From positions 1 through 64,000 of IMG/VR virus record IMGVR_UViG_3300035698_018653: a stretch of 64,000 bases of DNA. One strand, given 5' to 3'. This stretch comes from a virus. Below the pieces are notes generated by a model. That model searched no databases, was not told where the DNA came from, and saw only the letters and a list, made by a program, of their open reading frames with translations. This document shows positions 49,578-63,379 of the stretch, in pieces; position 1 is the stretch's first letter; every line of letters starts with the position of its first letter. The translations under genes and the position numbers were made by a program.

Positions 49578-49587
49578 GAGATTGACC

Positions 49588-50352
49588 ATGAAATTAATGA
49601 ATGTAGATGCAAGCGAAGTGGCGAAGTCGGTACAGGGTTTTGATTATAGCCACATTGAGTTTGATAAGTTAGGCGCTCCAGAATATACCATTGTTGCTAT
49701 CGTTACAGATAAGTCAGGTTCAGTATCGGAATTTAAAACTGAGCTGGAGAATATTAATAAGACTTGCGTGGAGTCCTGCCAGAAATCTCCCAAAGCGGAG
49801 AACTTACTTATTCGGTCCACCGCTTTTAATGGTATTGACGGAATAGAGGAGCTTCACGGCTTTACATTACTTTCTGCTATTGATATTAATCAGTATGACG
49901 GAAGTATTGAGGCGGACGGTATGACTCCGCTCTATGACGCAACTCTTGACGGTATAGATACCGTTCTTGATTATTCAAAGAAGCTGTATGACCGTCAGTA
50001 CTTTTGTAACGCAATAGTATTTGTTATTACCGATGGCATAGAGAACAGTTCGCACTCTGGTTCTGTTTCTAAGATTAAAGATGCCATTAGTAAAATAAAG
50101 AAAGGAGAGATGCTTGAGTCTTTTACTTCTGTACTAATCGGAGTGGGGACGGAAGACGATCAGGTCAAAGATTTCCTGGAGAATTTTAATAAGGAAGCCG
50201 GCTTTGATCAGTATGTAGAAATTACAGAAGCAACCCCACAGAAGCTTGCCAAGCTTGCGAAGTTTGTAAGCCAAAGTGTTTCCAGTACGTCGCAAGCTCT
50301 TGGAACGCAAGGCCCGTCTCAGCCTATTGATATTAAAACCGTAACTATCTAA
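49588..50352 (+). CDS. TerY-like vWA domain protein
   Basis: A 254-residue von Willebrand A domain with a full metal-adhesion site: DKSGS at 41-45, TPLYD near 112, and VITDGIEN near 140. Single-domain vWA proteins of this type (TerY) occur with a PP2C phosphatase and a protein kinase in tellurite-resistance-type stress systems. Exactly those two genes follow, with TAATG and ATGA overlaps. ATG at 49588 follows AGGAG. The metal-dependent ligand is unknown. Confidence 0.85.
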   Translation: MKLMNVDASEVAKSVQGFDYSHIEFDKLGAPEYTIVAIVTDKSGSVSEFKTELENINKTCVESCQKSPKAENLLIRSTAFNGIDGIEELHGFTLLSAIDINQYDGSIEADGMTPLYDATLDGIDTVLDYSKKLYDRQYFCNAIVFVITDGIENSSHSGSVSKIKDAISKIKKGEMLESFTSVLIGVGTEDDQVKDFLENFNKEAGFDQYVEITEATPQKLAKLAKFVSQSVSSTSQALGTQGPSQPIDIKTVTI

Positions 50353-51152
50353 TGAATTCTAATTCGTATTTTGAGATTGGATCTTCTCACCTGATCTGCC
50401 AGGACTATGCTCTTTCTGGTAGGTCAGGTGATGGGGGTCTTCAGTATGGGATTATATCTGATGGTTGTAGTTCGTCAAAGCATTCGGAAGTGGGCGCTCA
50501 GATATTATCTTTTGTAGCAAAGTATTGCGTAACACTTTTATACCCACGTATGGATTTCTTAGGGGAGACACTAAGAGATTTTATAATTGATAGGGTAGAA
50601 AAGTTAAGAGCGCTTTATGGTTTACCGGAAGAAGCTCTTGACGCAACTTTATTTATTGTTATTTATGCCGATGGTTTCTGGAGTGTATTTGGTTGGGGTG
50701 ACGGTACAGTTATAATTGAAAAACCATTTGGCGTAGTCAATATTGAAATGATAGAGTACAAACAAAACGCACCTTACTATCTTTCTTATTTGAGAAATTG
50801 CGACAGAAAAGAAAGATATATGAAAGAGTTTAATGATAACAATATAATTCAATCTAGTTATGGTACCTTAAGTACTCCCAGTAAAGTTGAAAGACATGTT
50901 GAAGCTCCATTCTTTTATTCGACTGCTGACGACGAAATTAAATCGATAACTGTTTGCTCAGATGGAATATCAAGTTATATAGACGAATTTGCAAATCCTG
51001 TTGGTATTTTTAAGATGGCCCATGAATTTATTGGTTTTAAAAGAACTAACGGAGAATTTGTTAAATCAAATATGATGTTTCTTAAAAGAAAGATGGAGAG
51101 GGAAGGGATTCAGCATTATGACGATATAAGTTGCGCAACGGTAACGTTATGA
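50352..51152 (+). CDS. PP2C-family Ser/Thr phosphatase
   Basis: GSSHLICQDYAL corresponds to motif 1 (GxR..NED). ISDGCSSSKHSEVGA is the DG motif with the metal Asp. VCSDGISSYID and HYDDISCATVTL are motifs 8 and 11. At 266 residues it is a minimal PP2C. It lies between the vWA and kinase genes and is translationally coupled to both, so it probably reverses the kinase's phosphorylation. Confidence 0.83.
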   Translation: MNSNSYFEIGSSHLICQDYALSGRSGDGGLQYGIISDGCSSSKHSEVGAQILSFVAKYCVTLLYPRMDFLGETLRDFIIDRVEKLRALYGLPEEALDATLFIVIYADGFWSVFGWGDGTVIIEKPFGVVNIEMIEYKQNAPYYLSYLRNCDRKERYMKEFNDNNIIQSSYGTLSTPSKVERHVEAPFFYSTADDEIKSITVCSDGISSYIDEFANPVGIFKMAHEFIGFKRTNGEFVKSNMMFLKRKMEREGIQHYDDISCATVTL

Positions 51153-52846
51153 GCAAATCAATAAAAGTATTCCGTAAGGGTAAGCAACCATTAACGCTTA
51201 CCGAGAATCACTATAAGGGTGGTGGTGGAGAGGGAGCAGTATACAAAAGAGATAGATATGCTTATAAAATATATCATGATCCTTCAAAGATGATTTCGGA
51301 AGATAAAATAAAAGAACTTAAAAAGATAAAGAGAAAGAATGTTTTAAATCCTATTGATATTTTATACAATAGCAAAAATAAGCCTATTGGGTTTATGATG
51401 AATTATGTCAAAGATACAGAATATCTTTGTAAATTATTTGTTAAGAACTTTAAAGATCAAAATGGAATTTCAACATCTAATATAACAAATATAGTAATCG
51501 AGATGGAAAAAACATTATCCGATATACATAAATATAATATGCTGGTAGTTGATTATAATGAAATGAATTTTCTGATAGATAAGAAATTTAGTATTCCTTA
51601 TTATATAGATGTAGATTCGTGGCAGACTAAAGATCATAAAGCAAAAGCTTTGATGGAGACAGTTAGGGATAGGGTAACGAAGTATGGAGAGTTTACCGAG
51701 CTGACTGATTGGTTTTCGTTCGCTGTAGTAACGTTCCAGCTTTATACTGGTCTTCACCCTTATAGGGGCGGCAGACACCCTAATTATAAGCCTAGAGACT
51801 GGTCAAAGAGGATGGATGACAACGTATCGGTATTTAATAAAGATGTAGCGCTTCCAAAATTTATACCAAGCTTTTCTTTTATACCAAAGAATTATCTTGC
51901 ATGGTATCAGGAGATATTTGAAAAGAAAGTAAGAAGCGCACCCCCTTCTGTAGCTGGGACAGTTTCTATGCCTTCGATAGTGGTAAAGGTTTCTGGAAAT
52001 GATATATTTGATATTGAGTTATTAGGAAGCTTTACCGGAAATATAAAAGGCGTTTATTATATCGATGGAAATAGATATATAATGACAAATAAGAATGTAT
52101 ATTTTAATACTGACAATAAAACAATATTTACTTTCGGTAGCGATATAAAAAACATAAGGGTGGGAATGGCTTCTATATTTAATGATACATCTCCCGTTAT
52201 CGCATATATAAAAGATACTCAATGTATTTTTCTTGACCTACGGAGAACTTATCAGACCGCTATATTGGCAGATGATTTTATGGAAGCTAACAATGCAATA
52301 TATACGGTACATGGTGGCAAGCTTATAGAGAATACGTTTGAGAAGTTTGGAAAGATAATTCATAAGACCAAGAATGTATGCAATATATATGAGAGCGCAT
52401 ACAAAGTATTTGACAGTATTGTATCTCAAGATATTATGGGTACATGTTGGCTTGCGATTCCGTATGATATAGGTAAATGTGCTCACGTAAGAATGAAAGA
52501 GCTAGACGGATATAGAATTATTGACGCTAAGTATTGTAATCGAACTGCCGTTATTATCGGAGAGAAAGCAGGACTTTATAATCTCTTTACAATATTCTTT
52601 TCTAAAGATGGTCATTCTGTATATGATATAAAGAAAGATGATGTAAGTTATCATTCAATAAATTTTGTAAGAAAAGATGAAGCTTGTGTACTTATAGACA
52701 ATGAAAAGATGACTTTATTTGTTGATAATATAGGCAGGAAGGAACTAAAAAATCCACCACTTGATCTTTCAATGAAAATGTATTGTGAAAATAGCGACGT
52801 TATGTTTGCTAATGAAAATAAACTTTATAAAGTGAGGATGAAATGA
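51149..52846 (+). CDS. Ser/Thr protein kinase of the TerY-P triad type
   Basis: ATG 51149 overlaps the phosphatase stop. Residues 24-33 (GGGGEGAVYK) are the Gly loop and Lys40 (YAYK) the ATP lysine. VVDYNEMNFL gives Asp135 and Asn140 of the catalytic loop, and IDVDSWQ at 153-159 replaces DFG. The IDxDSxQ form is characteristic of kinases found with TerY and PP2C. The kinase domain ends near residue 275. The remaining 290 residues are beta-rich, possibly a sensor or propeller domain. Substrate unknown. Confidence 0.85.
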   Translation: MSKSIKVFRKGKQPLTLTENHYKGGGGEGAVYKRDRYAYKIYHDPSKMISEDKIKELKKIKRKNVLNPIDILYNSKNKPIGFMMNYVKDTEYLCKLFVKNFKDQNGISTSNITNIVIEMEKTLSDIHKYNMLVVDYNEMNFLIDKKFSIPYYIDVDSWQTKDHKAKALMETVRDRVTKYGEFTELTDWFSFAVVTFQLYTGLHPYRGGRHPNYKPRDWSKRMDDNVSVFNKDVALPKFIPSFSFIPKNYLAWYQEIFEKKVRSAPPSVAGTVSMPSIVVKVSGNDIFDIELLGSFTGNIKGVYYIDGNRYIMTNKNVYFNTDNKTIFTFGSDIKNIRVGMASIFNDTSPVIAYIKDTQCIFLDLRRTYQTAILADDFMEANNAIYTVHGGKLIENTFEKFGKIIHKTKNVCNIYESAYKVFDSIVSQDIMGTCWLAIPYDIGKCAHVRMKELDGYRIIDAKYCNRTAVIIGEKAGLYNLFTIFFSKDGHSVYDIKKDDVSYHSINFVRKDEACVLIDNEKMTLFVDNIGRKELKNPPLDLSMKMYCENSDVMFANENKLYKVRMK

Positions 52847-53583
52847 AAACTAAAGATCAAATAGTTTTTTGGCTTAAACAAATGTTAATTAAAACAAAGA
52901 AAGATGGGTATGTAGTGGGTTTAAGTGGCGGTATTGATTCGGCGGTTGTTGCTTGTTTAATAAAGGAAGCCGTTCCTGAAAATAGCCTTGGAATTATAAT
53001 GCCATGTTTAAGCGATATATTAGATAAAAATTATGCAGTAAAATTAGCAAATCAAATAAATTTAAGGTATTCAATAAAAGATTTAGAAAGTACCTATTAT
53101 CATTTTATAGGAGAAATCGAAGGAGATGGATTAAGGTCCGATGGGTATAATACAATGCTTGGCAATATAAAAGCAAGATTAAGGATGACAACATTATATC
53201 ACACCGCTTCTCTACATAATTATCTTGTGGTTGGCACCTCTAATAAAACAGAAATTTATCTTGGTTATTATACTAAGTATGGAGATGGTGGAGTTGACCT
53301 TGAGCCGATAGGGGATTTATTAAAGAGAGAAGTATATGAACTTGGTAATTATTTTAATATACCTCCCGAAATACAAATAAGAAAACCTTCTGCTGGATTA
53401 TGGGAAGGACAAACAGATGAAGATGAGTTAGGCTTAAGTTATGAGATAATGGATAAGTTTGTAGAGAAACATCCAACAAGAGAATTAAAAGAATGTGATA
53501 GTATAAAGCTTTGTAATTTAAGAATGAATTCAATTCATAAAAGAAATACGCCTGAAATTTGTACCATTAAAAAGGAGTTATAA
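52843..53583 (+). CDS. nadE: NH3-dependent NAD synthetase
   Basis: Amidates nicotinic acid adenine dinucleotide to NAD. GLSGGIDSAVVA is the ATP-pyrophosphatase loop. GNIKARLRM, VGTSNKTEIYLGYYTKYGDG and KPSAGLWEGQTDEDELGLSY are diagnostic of NadE. There is no glutaminase domain, so ammonia is the amide donor. It is coupled to the kinase by ATGA and followed one base later by the phosphoribosyltransferase. Confidence 0.95.
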   Translation: MKTKDQIVFWLKQMLIKTKKDGYVVGLSGGIDSAVVACLIKEAVPENSLGIIMPCLSDILDKNYAVKLANQINLRYSIKDLESTYYHFIGEIEGDGLRSDGYNTMLGNIKARLRMTTLYHTASLHNYLVVGTSNKTEIYLGYYTKYGDGGVDLEPIGDLLKREVYELGNYFNIPPEIQIRKPSAGLWEGQTDEDELGLSYEIMDKFVEKHPTRELKECDSIKLCNLRMNSIHKRNTPEICTIKKEL

Positions 53584-53584
53584 A

Positions 53585-54703
53585 ATGATTATGCCTGATG
53601 ATCACAAACCGTATATTGATTTATATTTCTTAAGGGCAAAAGAGATACTACAGAAGGAGGGATTAAACCCAATAGTAAGGGCTAAAGTATTTATTAGAAA
53701 AGTAAAAGATGGAAGTAATCAGGTTTATGGAATAAATGAAGCAGTTGATATTATAGATAGATATAGTAATTTATTTAAGAATGGCGGTAAGGTTTATGCT
53801 CTTGCCGAAGGGTCTGAGTATTACTCTAAAGAAACTATTATGATTTTAGAGGGAAGGATACAAGATTTTATTGATTTAGAAACAATGTATTTGGGGGTTA
53901 TTAGCTATAATACAACAATGAAGAATGACAGCAGACATGTTGATATAGATAAAGTAAAAACAAACGCAAAAGAAATAGTTGACGTTGTTGAAGGTAGACC
54001 AATTACGTATATGGGGCCAAGGCACTGGCATTATATTTACGATTATGATATTACAGAAGCCGCTTTAAGTGGTGGATTTACAAATTGTTCTACGTATAAT
54101 GGTTCAAGAGAAAAAGTTGTTGGAACAATTCCCCACGCTCTCGAAAATATTTATGCCTGGAAGTACGGAAAAGAAAATGCAGTATTAACTTCCACACTTG
54201 CTTTTGATAGACATATGAATATAGATATCCCCAGAATAGCGTTAGTTGATTATAACAACCGGGAAATAACAGATTCATTGGTTTGTGCTTATGTTTTAAA
54301 AGATAGACTATCCGGTGTAAGGGTCGACACTTGCGGCGAGAATCACATGGAAGATATTGGCGCTGGCCCTGACGAACTCGCTATTACTAGTGGAGTTTCT
54401 GTAAGGGGAGTATATCAGTTAAGAAAGAAATTAAATGAAGTAGGTTTTAAAAATATTAAAATAACTCTTTCAAGTGGATTTGGAGATATTGAAAAGGTAA
54501 AAAGTTTTATAGAGGCAGAAAAGTATTTTGGGGTTAAGCTATTCGATTCTTTAGGGGTTGGTGGATTGTTCGAATCAAGAATGGCTACCATGGACATATT
54601 TGAAGTGGGGGAAAATCTTAATCGCATGAAATTGATAAGCAAAGAAGGCAGAGAGATAAATGATCCTAGTATTCCTTCAGAATTAAAGGAAGTAAAAATA
54701 TAA
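53585..54703 (+). CDS. pncB: Nicotinate phosphoribosyltransferase
   Basis: Makes nicotinate mononucleotide from nicotinic acid and PRPP. ETMYLGVISYNTT, GPRHWHYIYDYDITEAALSGG, TNCSTYNGSREKVVGTIPHA and LSSGFGDIEK are the conserved blocks of the NAPRTase family (type-II phosphoribosyltransferase barrel). AAGGAG lies 8 bases before the ATG. Together with PncA and NadE it covers all steps of nicotinamide-to-NAD salvage except adenylylation (NadD). Confidence 0.88.
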   Translation: MIMPDDHKPYIDLYFLRAKEILQKEGLNPIVRAKVFIRKVKDGSNQVYGINEAVDIIDRYSNLFKNGGKVYALAEGSEYYSKETIMILEGRIQDFIDLETMYLGVISYNTTMKNDSRHVDIDKVKTNAKEIVDVVEGRPITYMGPRHWHYIYDYDITEAALSGGFTNCSTYNGSREKVVGTIPHALENIYAWKYGKENAVLTSTLAFDRHMNIDIPRIALVDYNNREITDSLVCAYVLKDRLSGVRVDTCGENHMEDIGAGPDELAITSGVSVRGVYQLRKKLNEVGFKNIKITLSSGFGDIEKVKSFIEAEKYFGVKLFDSLGVGGLFESRMATMDIFEVGENLNRMKLISKEGREINDPSIPSELKEVKI

Positions 54704-55304: not shown

Positions 55305-55377
55305 CGGGGTGTAACTCAGCGGTTAGAGTGCCTGTCTGATATACAGGTGGTCGGTGGTTCAATTCCATCCATCCCGA
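55305..55377 (+). tRNA. tRNA-Ile (anticodon GAT)
   Basis: Cloverleaf of 73 nt. Acceptor CGGGGTG pairs with CATCCCG. The anticodon stem CCTGT/ACAGG encloses loop CTGATAT with GAT at 55338-55340. The T arm is GGTGG-TTCAATT-CCATC. Discriminator A; CCA is not encoded. It lies directly before the radical SAM gene. Confidence 0.88.
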
Positions 55378-56370: not shown

Positions 56371-56870
56371 AAGATACGATTTTTATTCATTATGGTCATA
56401 ATGAATTTAATAAGAGTAAATTTCAAAATATAAGTAATGATGGTGCTTGGATAAAGCCCAAAGGGGGGCTATGGGGTTCTCCCATTAACTCTAGTTGGGG
56501 TTGGAAAACTTGGTGTAAAGAAAATAATTTTCAAGATGATGATTTTTCTATTTATTTTGAATTTAAATTAAATATAATATATAGCAATGTTCTTGTTATA
56601 AATTCTTATGGCGATATGCTTAAACTTCCTTGGAAAAATGTCAAATACAGTGATAAAATTAAACGTATTGATTTTGAAGAAATAAATCGATGGTATGATG
56701 CTATTTATTTAACAGAAAATGGACAAAGAGAAACACACTTACCTAAATTTACAGTTAAAGACTATAAGATTGATCATTTTAAAAATCTTTACGGGTGGGA
56801 TTGTGAAAGTGTATTAGTTATGAATCCAAATATAATAGAGGAGTTAAAAAATGAAAAGTGTTATAAGTGA
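56367..56870 (+). CDS. Possible ADP-ribosyltransferase-like protein, 167 aa
   Basis: IHYGHNEF (His8-Tyr9) and KGGLWGSP (33-40) have the spacing of the H-Y...G-G-x-[YW] start of ART folds (LYHGS...GGLY). YDAIYLTENG and GWDCESVLVMNP resemble the later strands of that fold. It overlaps rtcB by 20 bases and radical SAM by 4. If an ART, it would use NAD, consistent with the nearby NAD genes. The assignment is a structural guess from motif spacing. Confidence 0.4.
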   Translation: MKDTIFIHYGHNEFNKSKFQNISNDGAWIKPKGGLWGSPINSSWGWKTWCKENNFQDDDFSIYFEFKLNIIYSNVLVINSYGDMLKLPWKNVKYSDKIKRIDFEEINRWYDAIYLTENGQRETHLPKFTVKDYKIDHFKNLYGWDCESVLVMNPNIIEELKNEKCYK

Positions 56871-58071
56871 TGTTGTAAATGGAAGTCATCTTCCAATAAA
56901 ATTATGGTTAGATAAAGACAAGATAGAAGAAAAAGCATTAGAGCAAGCAAAGAATTTAGCAAGACTCCCTTTTGCTTTTCGTCATATAGCAATTATGCCT
57001 GATGCTCATGTTGGTTATGGAATGTGTATTGGCGGTGTCGTAGCATGCAAAGGTGTAATAATTCCCTATGCTGTTGGTTATGATATTTCATGTGGTATGA
57101 TAGCTGTTAAAACTTCTTTAAAAGAAATAGATAAAGAAACCATAAAGAAAATATTTGGAGGAAGTAGTAAGTATAAGGGAGGGATAAGAAGTTGTATTCC
57201 GGTAGGTAGGGGTCATCATAGTAAAGCACAAGATGAAAGATTTATGCCCAGTGAAGAAATGTTTATGCCTGATTTTCATAACGAAAGAAGTATTTGCGAA
57301 GAGCAATATCAATCTGCTAGAAAACAAGTAGGCACTATGGGGTCAAATAATCATTTCATAGAAATACAAAAAGGAGATGATGGATATATTTGGATTATGA
57401 TTCATTCTGGAAGTAGAAATATAGGATATAGAGTTGCTGATCATTATAATAAAATTGCCGTTAAGTTAAATGAAAAATATTATTCTCAAGTTCCTAAGAG
57501 TTGGCAATTAGCTTACCTTCCTTTAGATTCAAAAGAGGGGCAAAGGTATAAAAAAGAAATGGAGTACTGTATCGAGTTCGCTAATTGTAATAGACAATTA
57601 ATGATGGAAAGAGCAAAAGAATGTTTTAATGAAATAGTTCCAGAAGTAGAATTTACAAATATAACAAATATAGATCATAATTATGCTTCTATGGAGAATC
57701 ATTTTGGTGAAAACGTAATGGTTCATAGAAAGGGGGCTACATTAGCGAGAGCAGGAAAGACCGGAATTATACCTGGTAGTATGGGCACGAAAAGTTATAT
57801 AACCGAAGGACTTGGTAATCCAGAAAGTTTTATGAGTTGCTCTCATGGTGCTGGTAGGGTTTTAAGTAGAACTAAGGCAAAGGAAGATTTAAATTTAAAT
57901 GAAGAAAAAAAGAAGATGGACGATAAGGGAATTATACACAGTATAAGAAATATAAAAGATTTAGAAGAAGCGTCATCAGCTTACAAGAATATTGACGAGG
58001 TAATGGAGAATCAAAAAGACCTCGTAAAGATACTAGTAACTTTAAGTCCACTAGCAGTTATAAAAGGCTAA
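56851..58071 (+). CDS. rtcB: RNA ligase RtcB
   Basis: GTP/Mn-dependent ligase joining 2',3'-cyclic phosphate to 5'-OH RNA ends, 406 residues. GYDISCGM holds the metal Cys81. GTMGSNNHFIE is the GTLGxxNHF motif, HRKGAT follows, and SCSHGAGR carries the guanylylated-His region. Three tRNA genes start 25 bases after it and one lies upstream, so repair of cleaved tRNA is the natural role. Confidence 0.95.
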   Translation: MKSVISDVVNGSHLPIKLWLDKDKIEEKALEQAKNLARLPFAFRHIAIMPDAHVGYGMCIGGVVACKGVIIPYAVGYDISCGMIAVKTSLKEIDKETIKKIFGGSSKYKGGIRSCIPVGRGHHSKAQDERFMPSEEMFMPDFHNERSICEEQYQSARKQVGTMGSNNHFIEIQKGDDGYIWIMIHSGSRNIGYRVADHYNKIAVKLNEKYYSQVPKSWQLAYLPLDSKEGQRYKKEMEYCIEFANCNRQLMMERAKECFNEIVPEVEFTNITNIDHNYASMENHFGENVMVHRKGATLARAGKTGIIPGSMGTKSYITEGLGNPESFMSCSHGAGRVLSRTKAKEDLNLNEEKKKMDDKGIIHSIRNIKDLEEASSAYKNIDEVMENQKDLVKILVTLSPLAVIKG

Positions 58072-58095
58072 TGCTAATGAGAACAATAAATAAAT

Positions 58096-58167
58096 TGTCA
58101 GGTACCCAAGTGGTAAGGGGACTGATTGTTAATCAGTTTGTCGCAAGTTCGAATCTTGCCCTGACAG
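58096..58167 (+). tRNA. tRNA-Asn (anticodon GTT)
   Basis: Acceptor TGTCAGG/CCTGACA, anticodon stem ACTGA/TCAGT with loop TTGTTAA (GTT), T arm GCAAG-TTCGAAT-CTTGC. 72 nt, discriminator G, CCA not encoded. A clean cloverleaf. Confidence 0.95.
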
Positions 58168-58175
58168 TAAAAATA

Positions 58176-58249
58176 ACCCGATTGGTCTATTGGATGGGCG
58201 CATGGCTACGGACTATGTTAGAGGGGTTCGATTCCTCTATCGGGTACCA
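58176..58249 (+). tRNA. tRNA-Arg (anticodon ACG), CCA encoded
   Basis: Acceptor ACCCGAT/ATCGGGT, D stem GTCT/GGGC, anticodon stem CATGG/CTATG with loop CTACGGA (ACG at 58208-58210), T arm AGGGG-TTCGATT-CCTCT. Discriminator A is followed by CCA at 58247-58249, unlike the other tRNAs here. Reading CGN with ACG normally needs A34 deamination by host TadA. Confidence 0.92.
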
Positions 58250-58257
58250 AATTTAAT

Positions 58258-58333
58258 CGTGGTGTGGCGAAGCCTGGTTCAACGCACCGGATTTTGGGTC
58301 CGGCACTCGCAGGTTCGAATCCTGTCACTACCG
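58258..58333 (+). tRNA. tRNA-Gln (anticodon TTG), irregular acceptor stem
   Basis: Anticodon stem CCGGA/TCCGG with loop TTTTGGG (TTG at 58294-58296). T arm GCAGG-TTCGAAT-CCTGT and D stem GCG/CGC. The acceptor pairs GTGGTG with CACTAC but has an extra or mismatched C at the end (CGTGGTG versus CACTACCG), so its exact ends are uncertain. Maturation or function could be affected. Confidence 0.8.
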
Positions 58334-58357
58334 AACAATTTAACAGAGGGGGAATAA

Positions 58358-61788: not shown

Positions 61789-61815
61789 AATATATAATTC
61801 AATTGTAAAATAACA

Positions 61816-61830
61816 GCGTATATTATTAAT
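61816..61830 (+). promoter_or_regulatory. Candidate promoter for a non-coding RNA, GCGTATATTAT motif
   Basis: GCGTATATTATTAAT matches the recurrent CGTATATTAT element over ten bases and lies just upstream of a hairpin-rich stretch with no gene. This placement is independent of ribosome sites and strengthens the promoter reading. Confidence 0.5.
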
Positions 61831-61837
61831 AACGGGC

Positions 61838-61960
61838 TACCTCAGAGAGGTTGGCTGAAGTACAGTAAAGAAGTACAGAAGTAAGTTGTTCTTTGAAAAG
61901 CGGGGAGAAACAAAATAGTATTTAATTTAGCTATTTTGATTGCCTATTTCTCCCCGCTTC
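61838..61960 (+). ncRNA. Structured non-coding RNA with boxA-like element
   Basis: No gene occupies 61789-62026. A small hairpin ACCTC-AGA-GAGGT opens the region, followed by GAAGTACAG twice. A long hairpin follows: AAGCGGGGAGAAA (61898-61910) pairs 13 of 13 with TTTCTCCCCGCTT (61947-61959), extended by CAAAATAG (61911-61918) with CTATTTTG (61931-61938). No T-run follows, so it is not a plain terminator. A promoter motif precedes it. Function unknown. Confidence 0.6.
61887..61899 (+). promoter_or_regulatory. boxA-like antitermination sequence
   Basis: TGTTCTTTGAAAA directly before the long hairpin resembles the boxA of Gram-positive rRNA leaders (TGTTCTTTGAAAACT). BoxA RNA binds NusB/NusE and protects untranslated RNA from early termination. 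A near copy stands before the second RNA at 62697. Confidence 0.45.
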
Positions 61961-62026
61961 TTAATCTTTAAAAAAGGGACTGAATTTGATAATGACTATG
62001 AAGCGAAATAAGGAGTTTTCCTTACA

Positions 62027-62098
62027 ATGAGCAATAAACTACTAGAAAGTACATATAATCGCTTAAACCGTCCTGTTTGGCGCTCAAAACAGCTATAA
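62027..62098 (+). CDS. Possible 23-aa peptide
   Basis: ATG at 62027 with AAGGAG about 11 bases upstream, basic 23-residue product, stop 12 bases before the next gene start. Weak evidence; it may be a leader or nothing. Confidence 0.3.
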   Translation: MSNKLLESTYNRLNRPVWRSKQL

Positions 62099-62110
62099 TA
62101 AGGAGTTGAT

Positions 62111-62356
62111 ATGTCTAAAGTGAAGGTATTTGTTACCTGTACTGTTCCGAAGTTAGGGGATATGGAAGTAAGTGAACGAATTTTAGTTAATAAAAAGGAT
62201 GTTGAATTTTTTACTTTACAAAAGATATTAAGGGAAAAATACAAAGACAAAAGAACGGTAATTGGAATTGGAGTATATAATAAAGCAGGCGATAAACAAG
62301 TGCCGCTTGAAGAAGTGAAGAAAATACAAAAGAAAAAGAAAGCATTAATATTATAA
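62111..62356 (+). CDS. Hypothetical protein, 81 aa
   Basis: AAGGAG lies 7 bases before the ATG. A small alpha/beta protein with a Lys-rich end. It stands between the two structured RNAs. Not recognised. Confidence 0.6.
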   Translation: MSKVKVFVTCTVPKLGDMEVSERILVNKKDVEFFTLQKILREKYKDKRTVIGIGVYNKAGDKQVPLEEVKKIQKKKKALIL

Positions 62357-62415
62357 ACAATTGAAACTATACAAAATCAGGAAAGTAGCATTTAAACTAA
62401 ATAAGGGAGGTTGTA

Positions 62416-62651
62416 ATGGCTAATAAAAAAGAAGCATCAATAAAGAGAGAAAAAATAACCTTAAGAGTATGTACTTTAGATTTAAACGATGATGAGTTTT
62501 GGGGCCAACTTGTGAGCGTAGGGGCAAAATAGACTTTATATTTGACAATAAGAACCTCCAGCCACAATGGGGTGCATGTAATTCACCGGATACGTGTAAA
62601 TATAGTGCATATAAAAAAGGAGTGTTAGTGTTACGGGTAGGGGAAGTATAA
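62416..62651 (+). pseudogene. Small Cys protein split between two frames
   Basis: From ATG 62416 (after GGGAGG) 38 codons run to TAG at 62530. The frame one base back opens just before and continues to TAA at 62649 with RGKIDFIFDNKNLQPQWG and ACNSPDTCKYSAY, a coding-looking Cys-containing stretch. The two parts would make one protein of about 75 residues if the frame changed near 62497-62520. Frameshift mutation, programmed shift or sequencing indel cannot be told apart. Confidence 0.4.
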
Positions 62652-62696
62652 GTAAATTTACAATTATAATTGAGAAAAATGTTCTTAAAGATATAA

Positions 62697-62708
62697 GCTC
62701 TTTGAAAA
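62697..62708 (+). promoter_or_regulatory. boxA-like antitermination sequence
   Basis: GCTCTTTGAAAA stands immediately 5' of the large structured RNA. It matches both the E. coli rRNA boxA start (GCTCTTTAACA) and the phage's other copy at 61887 in CTTTGAAAA. A 12-bp palindrome (CAATTATAATTG, 62661-62672) lies shortly upstream. Confidence 0.45.
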
Positions 62709-63038
62709 TTTATGTGGGAGGCGCCGTACTATAGGTGAAAGTGATGAATTTGTCTATAGCACAACGCCCCCGAACTTGTGATTCGGGGTAGCAACTAAAC
62801 CGTAACCTGTTCTGAATTTCTAAAAGTATAGTGGTAATCACCCACCAGGGGCTTTTAAAGCTATATGTTTTTTCAGCGACGTATTCCAACGTCATTATAC
62901 ATATGGCCAGTTCAGTCATTGGCTACGATAAAGTAAGCGCCATTCAGTCAAGAGGTTTGTCAATAAATACTGCATGATTGGCCTCCTTTGCATTATTAGT
63001 ACGGTGACGGAAAGCGTCTGCGCCTCCCACATAAAAAT
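62705..63038 (+). ncRNA. Large ornate structured RNA, about 330 nt, unknown class
   Basis: A perfect 16-bp helix closes the element: TTTATGTGGGAGGCGC (62709-62724) with GCGCCTCCCACATAAA (63020-63035). It continues as CGTACT (62725-62730) with AGTACG (62998-63003), with a side hairpin GACG-GAAAG-CGTC (63006-63018). Inside are CCCCGAA/TTCGGGG (62768-62788), GACGT/ACGTC (62878-62893) enclosed by GCTATATG/CATATGGC (62860-62907), and CTATAG/CTATAG (62729-62759, competing). No credible gene overlaps. Motifs of tmRNA, RNase P and SRP RNA are absent. Confidence 0.75.
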
Positions 63039-63064
63039 TTTATAAAAAAACAGGAGAAATTAAC

Positions 63065-63379
63065 ATGAAATTATCTAGAGAAGAAAATTATAAGAGATAT
63101 AAAAAGGTAACAATGTTAGCGAGAATAATTAGGTCTGGTAGAAAATTGAGTAAAGATAATTTAAAGTTTTACGACAAAGAAGTAGAAAGAATAAGAAAAC
63201 ATAGGGAAGAATCAGATAAGATTAAGTGGGAAAATTACGATAAAGACATAAAAGGGCTTTCAAAAAAGTTTAAAAGATTAGATAGGGCAATATCAAAAAA
63301 TGACGCATTAGAGTCTATAAAAATAATACGAGATATACTAGTGATCGATGTAGATTTTGGAGGTTTTTGTGAAAGATGA
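63065..63379 (+). CDS. Hypothetical charged helical protein, 104 aa
   Basis: Not recognised. Lys/Arg/Glu-rich and helical for its whole length. CAGGAG precedes the ATG directly after the large RNA, so both may share a transcript. Confidence 0.6.
   Translation: MKLSREENYKRYKKVTMLARIIRSGRKLSKDNLKFYDKEVERIRKHREESDKIKWENYDKDIKGLSKKFKRLDRAISKNDALESIKIIRDILVIDVDFGGFCER

Follow-up and report, generated by a model that had tools for sequence, protein, structure and literature searches.

A putative noncoding RNA gene of a phage, organised like a miniature rRNA precursor, with a candidate rRNA-style boxA leader

Introduction

The boxA element recruits NusB and S10, and RNase III cleaves leader-trailer helices; production of 16S rRNA cannot do without the leader-trailer helix and also benefits from boxA (PMC10250234). 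boxA also relieves the Rho-dependent repression of long noncoding inserts (PMC4807359) and raises the levels of CRISPR-array transcripts (PMC7862264). Among phages, ROOL and GOLLD are large phage-encoded noncoding RNAs, often found near tRNAs (PMC12286853). Here we describe a 334-nt phage element (62705-63038) in which a boxA-like site abuts a long closing helix, and compare it with these systems. The window analysed, 64,000 nt, covers the first half of a virus record of 126,906 bp (IMG/VR IMGVR_UViG_3300035698_018653) with genes almost wholly on the + strand; coordinates are those of the window unless given as record positions. A preliminary description had presented the element as a large, ornate noncoding RNA.

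Results and discussion

Genomic setting

No close relative of the record was found in the collections searched, which may exclude records very near it. Its terminase (TerL) gene (record 76900-78615) has 25-28% identity to those of large actinobacterial phages, which is distant, and the best TerL matches in IMG/VR (34% and 31%) lie on two ~16-kb contigs. Two of the distant TerL relatives, Rhodococcus phage Trina (L018 27571-29175) and Streptomyces phage Faust (L019 25890-27521), each have an annotated Ro-like RNA-binding protein beside a tRNA cluster, and Faust also has a tmRNA. A Y RNA acting with a Ro protein was considered for the element and rejected: though TerL relatives are annotated with Ro, the record contains no TROVE domain (a control genome was positive).

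Elsewhere in the window, an RtcB RNA ligase lies directly 5' of three tRNAs (Asn, Arg and Gln; 56851-58334), with a fourth (Ile) at 55305, and the set perhaps serves repair of cleaved tRNAs. NAD synthase adjoins a phosphoribosyltransferase-like protein (Pfam; 52843-54703), suggesting phage NAD metabolism. At 49582-52846 three neighbouring genes resemble a phosphorylation triad: one product looks like a vWA domain by eye but matches nothing in Pfam, another is a PP2C-type phosphatase, and the last is kinase-like, with a Pfam score short of the cut-off. The protein encoded at 1469-2665 matches no Pfam family, has a C-terminal half made up nearly entirely of D/E/K runs, and is overlapped in that stretch by long open antisense frames. 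A 915-nt noncoding gap at record 66870-67784 starts purine-rich, contains several words resembling TATTCGAATA and folds strongly in its 3' half; it may be an origin of replication or a further RNA.

The element lies in a gene-poor gap of 1.3 kb (61789-63064), the largest in the record between + strand ORFs when ranked with a non-overlapping ORF set, by which 7.4% of the record is noncoding and which leaves an 81-aa ORF (62111-62356) within the gap. The element itself has no + strand ORF of at least 60 aa and a single 69-aa ORF on the strand opposite to the surrounding genes; the stretch is gene-free, as previously described. Its sequence occurs once in the record.

Closing helix and interior fold

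The helices and hairpins of the element are as follows:

62709-62724, + strand: 5' (leader) strand of P1, a 16-bp perfect closing helix
62725-62731, + strand: 5' strand of P2 (CGTACTA), continuing P1; mean pair probability 0.84
62768-62788, + strand: predicted internal hairpin CCCCGAA/TTCGGGG; mean pair probability 0.97, interior overall not beyond chance
62860-62907, + strand: predicted internal hairpin with a 9-bp stem and inner GACGT/ACGTC; interior overall not beyond chance
62997-63003, + strand: 3' strand of P2 (TAGTACG) in the predicted fold
63006-63018, + strand: side hairpin GACG-GAAAG-CGTC; mean pair probability 0.93
63020-63035, + strand: 3' (trailer) strand of P1

The 16-bp terminal helix is real and far beyond chance, and its pairing is exactly as first described. 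Among GC-containing inverted repeats spanning up to 600 nt, P1 is the longest in the 127-kb record, and 28 of 30 whole-genome dinucleotide shuffles had no repeat of its kind of even 12 bp, the other two having one. The helix continuing from P1 and the side hairpin, which sits between the 3' strands of P2 and P1, are likewise present; the loop, previously typed as GAAA, is GAAAG closed by GACG/CGTC and forms no GNRA tetraloop. Stacked on P2 with the hairpin inserted, P1 would form a three-way junction typical of RNA.

Folded as a whole, the stretch reaches -105.8 kcal/mol (z -4.7 to -4.9), and no shuffled sequence was equally stable. This score comes from the terminal helix: for the sequence inside P1 z is only -1.7, a value reached by 11 of 200 shuffles, and for that inside P1 and P2 only -1.0 (36 of 200). 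For the several internal hairpins of the preliminary description, an excess over chance is thus not demonstrated. The strand cannot be told from folding, as the reverse complement is slightly more stable (-109.1), and with an interior that barely beats shuffled sequence the term ornate is unproven. The closed helix is established and the ornate interior is not; of the earlier characterisation, a noncoding, end-closed RNA agrees with the data.

Known families and homologue searches

A search with Rfam models (4227 families), proposed earlier as a check, returned no match in the stretch at the gathering threshold; relaxing the cut-off to E<=10 added just two eukaryotic snRNA matches (U7/U6), both weak and spurious. 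No tmRNA, RNase P RNA, SRP RNA, group I or II intron or tRNA was recognised (Rfam, ARAGORN), in agreement with the first reading of the sequence, which had seen no hallmarks of the first three. BLAST of phage and plasmid collections gave no match to the element, and exact 18- and 19-mers drawn from it, including the 18-mer GTGGGAGGCGCCGTACTA, are absent from IMG/VR. A covariance model of the element (R1, 334 positions) recovered from 20 sources only the element, weakly its own reverse complement, and one chance match at E 0.8, and found nothing over 50 related phage records. Among 150 loci selected by pattern, one (L138) gave a 14-bit partial match to the model, which did not coincide with the seed match and was attributed to chance. 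Homologues were also sought by way of RtcB, an approach abandoned as the 11 loci obtained (50-61% identity, IMG/VR) had no gene order in common. The element is real and previously uncatalogued; to call it a large ornate RNA of a new class requires homologues with covariation, and no homologue was found in these searches.

boxA sites

The feature that best accounts for the architecture was absent from the preliminary description. Directly upstream of P1 lies a boxA-like site, and a second one, also followed by a helix, lies in the same gap:

61887-61899, + strand: second boxA-like site TGTTCTTTGAAAA, core GTTCTTTGAAAA, 0.8 kb upstream in the same gap
61898-61959, + strand: hairpin immediately following the second boxA; its closing helix is perfect over 13 bp (61898-61910/61947-61959)
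62696-62708, + strand: boxA-like antitermination site AGCTCTTTGAAAA, directly abutting P1 (starts 62709)

The core of the site next to P1, GCTCTTTGAAAA (62697-62708), is one base off the gamma-proteobacterial consensus GYTCTTTAANA (PMC5725501). The gap thus holds two CTTTGAAAA motifs, each directly 5' of a long helix. A third boxA-like site, CGCTCTTTAAAAA at record 117346, fits the gamma-proteobacterial consensus exactly and is followed by no strong closing helix. The noncoding gap in which it lies (record 117180-117521) continues with a GC-rich segment of ~47 nt and a strong hairpin, and is possibly another RNA, with no Rfam match.

The pattern [CT]TCTTT[AG]A[AC]AA has four + strand matches in the record, three of them noncoding in a genome that is 7.4% noncoding, and four on the minus strand, all in coding DNA. 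Within 25 nt, the 13-bp helix following the boxA at 61889 was equalled at a fraction of 0.0005 of 4000 random positions and the 16-bp helix following that at 62698 at none of 4000, figures that are indicative, as the test was framed once the motif had already been noticed. In other phage loci (~4 Mb, both strands), none of 19 boxA matches was followed by such a closing helix. Chance hardly accounts for two independent co-occurrences of boxA and helix within a single gap. As boxA lies directly upstream on the + strand, it also provides independent support for an RNA transcribed from that strand. A promoter-like TTGAGA-16-TATAAG, noted by eye and ending at 62697, was set aside: its start would fall inside boxA, and sigma-70-like sites are about as common in shuffled sequence.

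Comparison with bacterial 16S rRNA leaders

The plasmid-borne 16S leader of Niallia has a boxA core, GCTCTTTGAAAA, identical to the phage site at 62697-62708, and that of Peribacillus a core, GTTCTTTGAAAA, identical to the phage site at 61887-61899. In other plasmid-borne 16S operons boxA reads GATCTTTGAAAA (Paenibacillus, Latilactobacillus) or GTTCTTTGAAAC (Phocaeicola), and in the chromosomal rrnB of E. coli GCTCTTTAACAA; the 16S leaders of Priestia, Legionella and Deinococcus have no boxA recognisable by this pattern. The longest perfect leader-trailer helix has 18 bp in E. coli, 14 in Peribacillus and 12 in Niallia, and in all three it begins at the 3' end of boxA or a few bases beyond, as in the phage. 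In a 16S leader as in the phage element, boxA adjoins the leader strand of a long helix, and this helix closes a noncoding RNA. They differ in that the phage element is phage-borne, has a body of 334 nt vs ~1540 in 16S, and is without 16S similarity or an Rfam rRNA match. A body derived from rRNA was rejected on these grounds (no 16S similarity; no SSU, LSU or 5S rRNA match in Rfam). The host was also sought through an exact leader match, and the 18-mer AGCTCTTTGAAAATTTAT matched no rRNA leader in bacterial genomes. Like the element, boxA-protected CRISPR arrays have a boxA that precedes a long stretch of noncoding RNA (PMC7862264); the element differs from them in being a single closed structure without a repeat-spacer array.

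On sequence grounds, the explanation we favour, at somewhat better than even, is that the element is a putative phage gene for a noncoding RNA, organised as a miniature rRNA precursor with a candidate rRNA-style boxA leader. This reading draws directly on the helix, the exact boxA match, the adjacency of the two, the second boxA-plus-helix and the identical arrangement of 16S leaders in bacteria; counting against it are that no homologue was found, that the interior fold is near chance, that the minus strand folds equally well, that the third boxA site lacks a strong closing helix, that the single ROOL locus examined has no boxA just upstream, and that predicted pairing of boxA with a downstream Shine-Dalgarno sequence hints at a cis role. 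A + strand transcript would carry, in order, boxA (62696-62708), leader (62709-62731), a body of ~265 nt and trailer (62997-63035), and may arise by read-through from upstream phage genes, shielded by boxA. Host NusB-S10 would bind boxA in the nascent RNA and render RNA polymerase Rho-resistant, allowing it to cross the 1.3-kb gene-poor stretch (61789-63064) without stopping. The leader would stay close to the polymerase while the body is transcribed and, once the trailer appears, pair with it into a helix of 16+7 bp, which would close the RNA, protect its ends and perhaps, like that of 16S rRNA, serve as a substrate for RNase III. We infer transcription, NusB binding, processing and stability of the RNA from this arrangement, which suggests that the phage borrows the host machinery for making rRNA; a structural or ribosome-related role for the product would be a guess.

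Alternative explanations

The element could instead be a cis-acting, nut- or put-like antitermination element that modifies the polymerase for downstream read-through, the RNA having no separate role. Two boxA sites 0.8 kb apart among genes almost wholly on the + strand are in keeping with this, but a closed RNA of 334 nt is much longer than needed, nut and put elements being far shorter, and by eye no boxB-like hairpin follows directly after boxA. Lambda nut sites do contain boxA, and like the phage element the lambdoid sites place it in a phage transcript, where it recruits Nus factors (PMC10250234), although they are short boxA-boxB elements whereas here boxA abuts a long-range closing helix. 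We regard this alternative as unlikely.

Two further readings concern the 3' side of the element:

62982-62989, + strand: CCTCCTTT, the 16S anti-Shine-Dalgarno core; only + strand copy in the record, significance uncertain
63050-63379, + strand: Shine-Dalgarno AGGAG (63052-63056) and a 104-aa ORF (63065-63379), downstream of the element

The element might act as a 5' leader controlling translation of ORF 63065, in which formation of the closing helix would lead to pairing of boxA with the Shine-Dalgarno sequence, and Nus binding or unfolding would free or block the latter. P1 ends 17 nt upstream of the Shine-Dalgarno sequence, boxA pairs with it in the predicted fold (unpaired probability about 0.3 to 0.6), and there is precedent in E. 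coli suhB, which is repressed by Nus factors at a boxA in its 5' UTR (PMC5725501). The pairing is weak support, since pyrimidine-rich boxA and purine-rich Shine-Dalgarno sequences are complementary in general; moreover no alternative switching fold was identified, and ORF 63065 matched no known family. Such a leader is accordingly a rather improbable account of the locus.

A bolder version of the rRNA comparison would make the RNA a phage mimic of pre-16S rRNA, with boxA, leader-trailer helix and, just interior to the trailer strand, an anti-Shine-Dalgarno core (CCUCCUUU), all in the right order. If so, host antitermination, ribosome-assembly or initiation factors would be captured during infection. 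The mimic reading is post hoc and the body is without 16S similarity; about 0.5 copies of CCTCCTTT are expected per genome, and the predicted fold leaves little of the site unpaired. We think it quite improbable.

A DNA element, that is, an inverted repeat serving replication or recombination or marking the end of a mobile element, would agree with the perfect 16-bp inverted repeat and with two strands that fold equally well. Against this, the helix resumes beyond the side hairpin in the manner of RNA junctions, boxA gives the element a direction, and a DNA or repeat-flanked mobile element is at odds with its single copy in the record and the lack of an 18-mer match in IMG/VR; we consider it highly improbable. 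Least probable of all is a ROOL- or GOLLD-like scaffold or cage made solely of RNA, to which the phage origin, the large closed RNA and the tRNAs at 58095-58334 might point, but neither model (RF03087 and RF02032, both in the library searched) matched even at E<=10, the element is shorter, as first noted, at about half their length or less (334 nt vs 574 ROOL model positions), its interior fold is not beyond chance, the nearest tRNAs are 4.4 kb away, and the one ROOL locus examined has no boxA just upstream.

Implications

boxA antitermination outside rRNA has already been described in lambdoid nut sites, suhB mRNA and CRISPR arrays. If the miniature rRNA precursor reading is true, a phage structured RNA equipped with both boxA and a leader-trailer helix would mean that the host's rRNA production line has been borrowed. 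A boxA directly followed by a long-range closing helix would also offer a simple sequence handle by which further orphan RNAs of phages could be recognised even where homologues are lacking.
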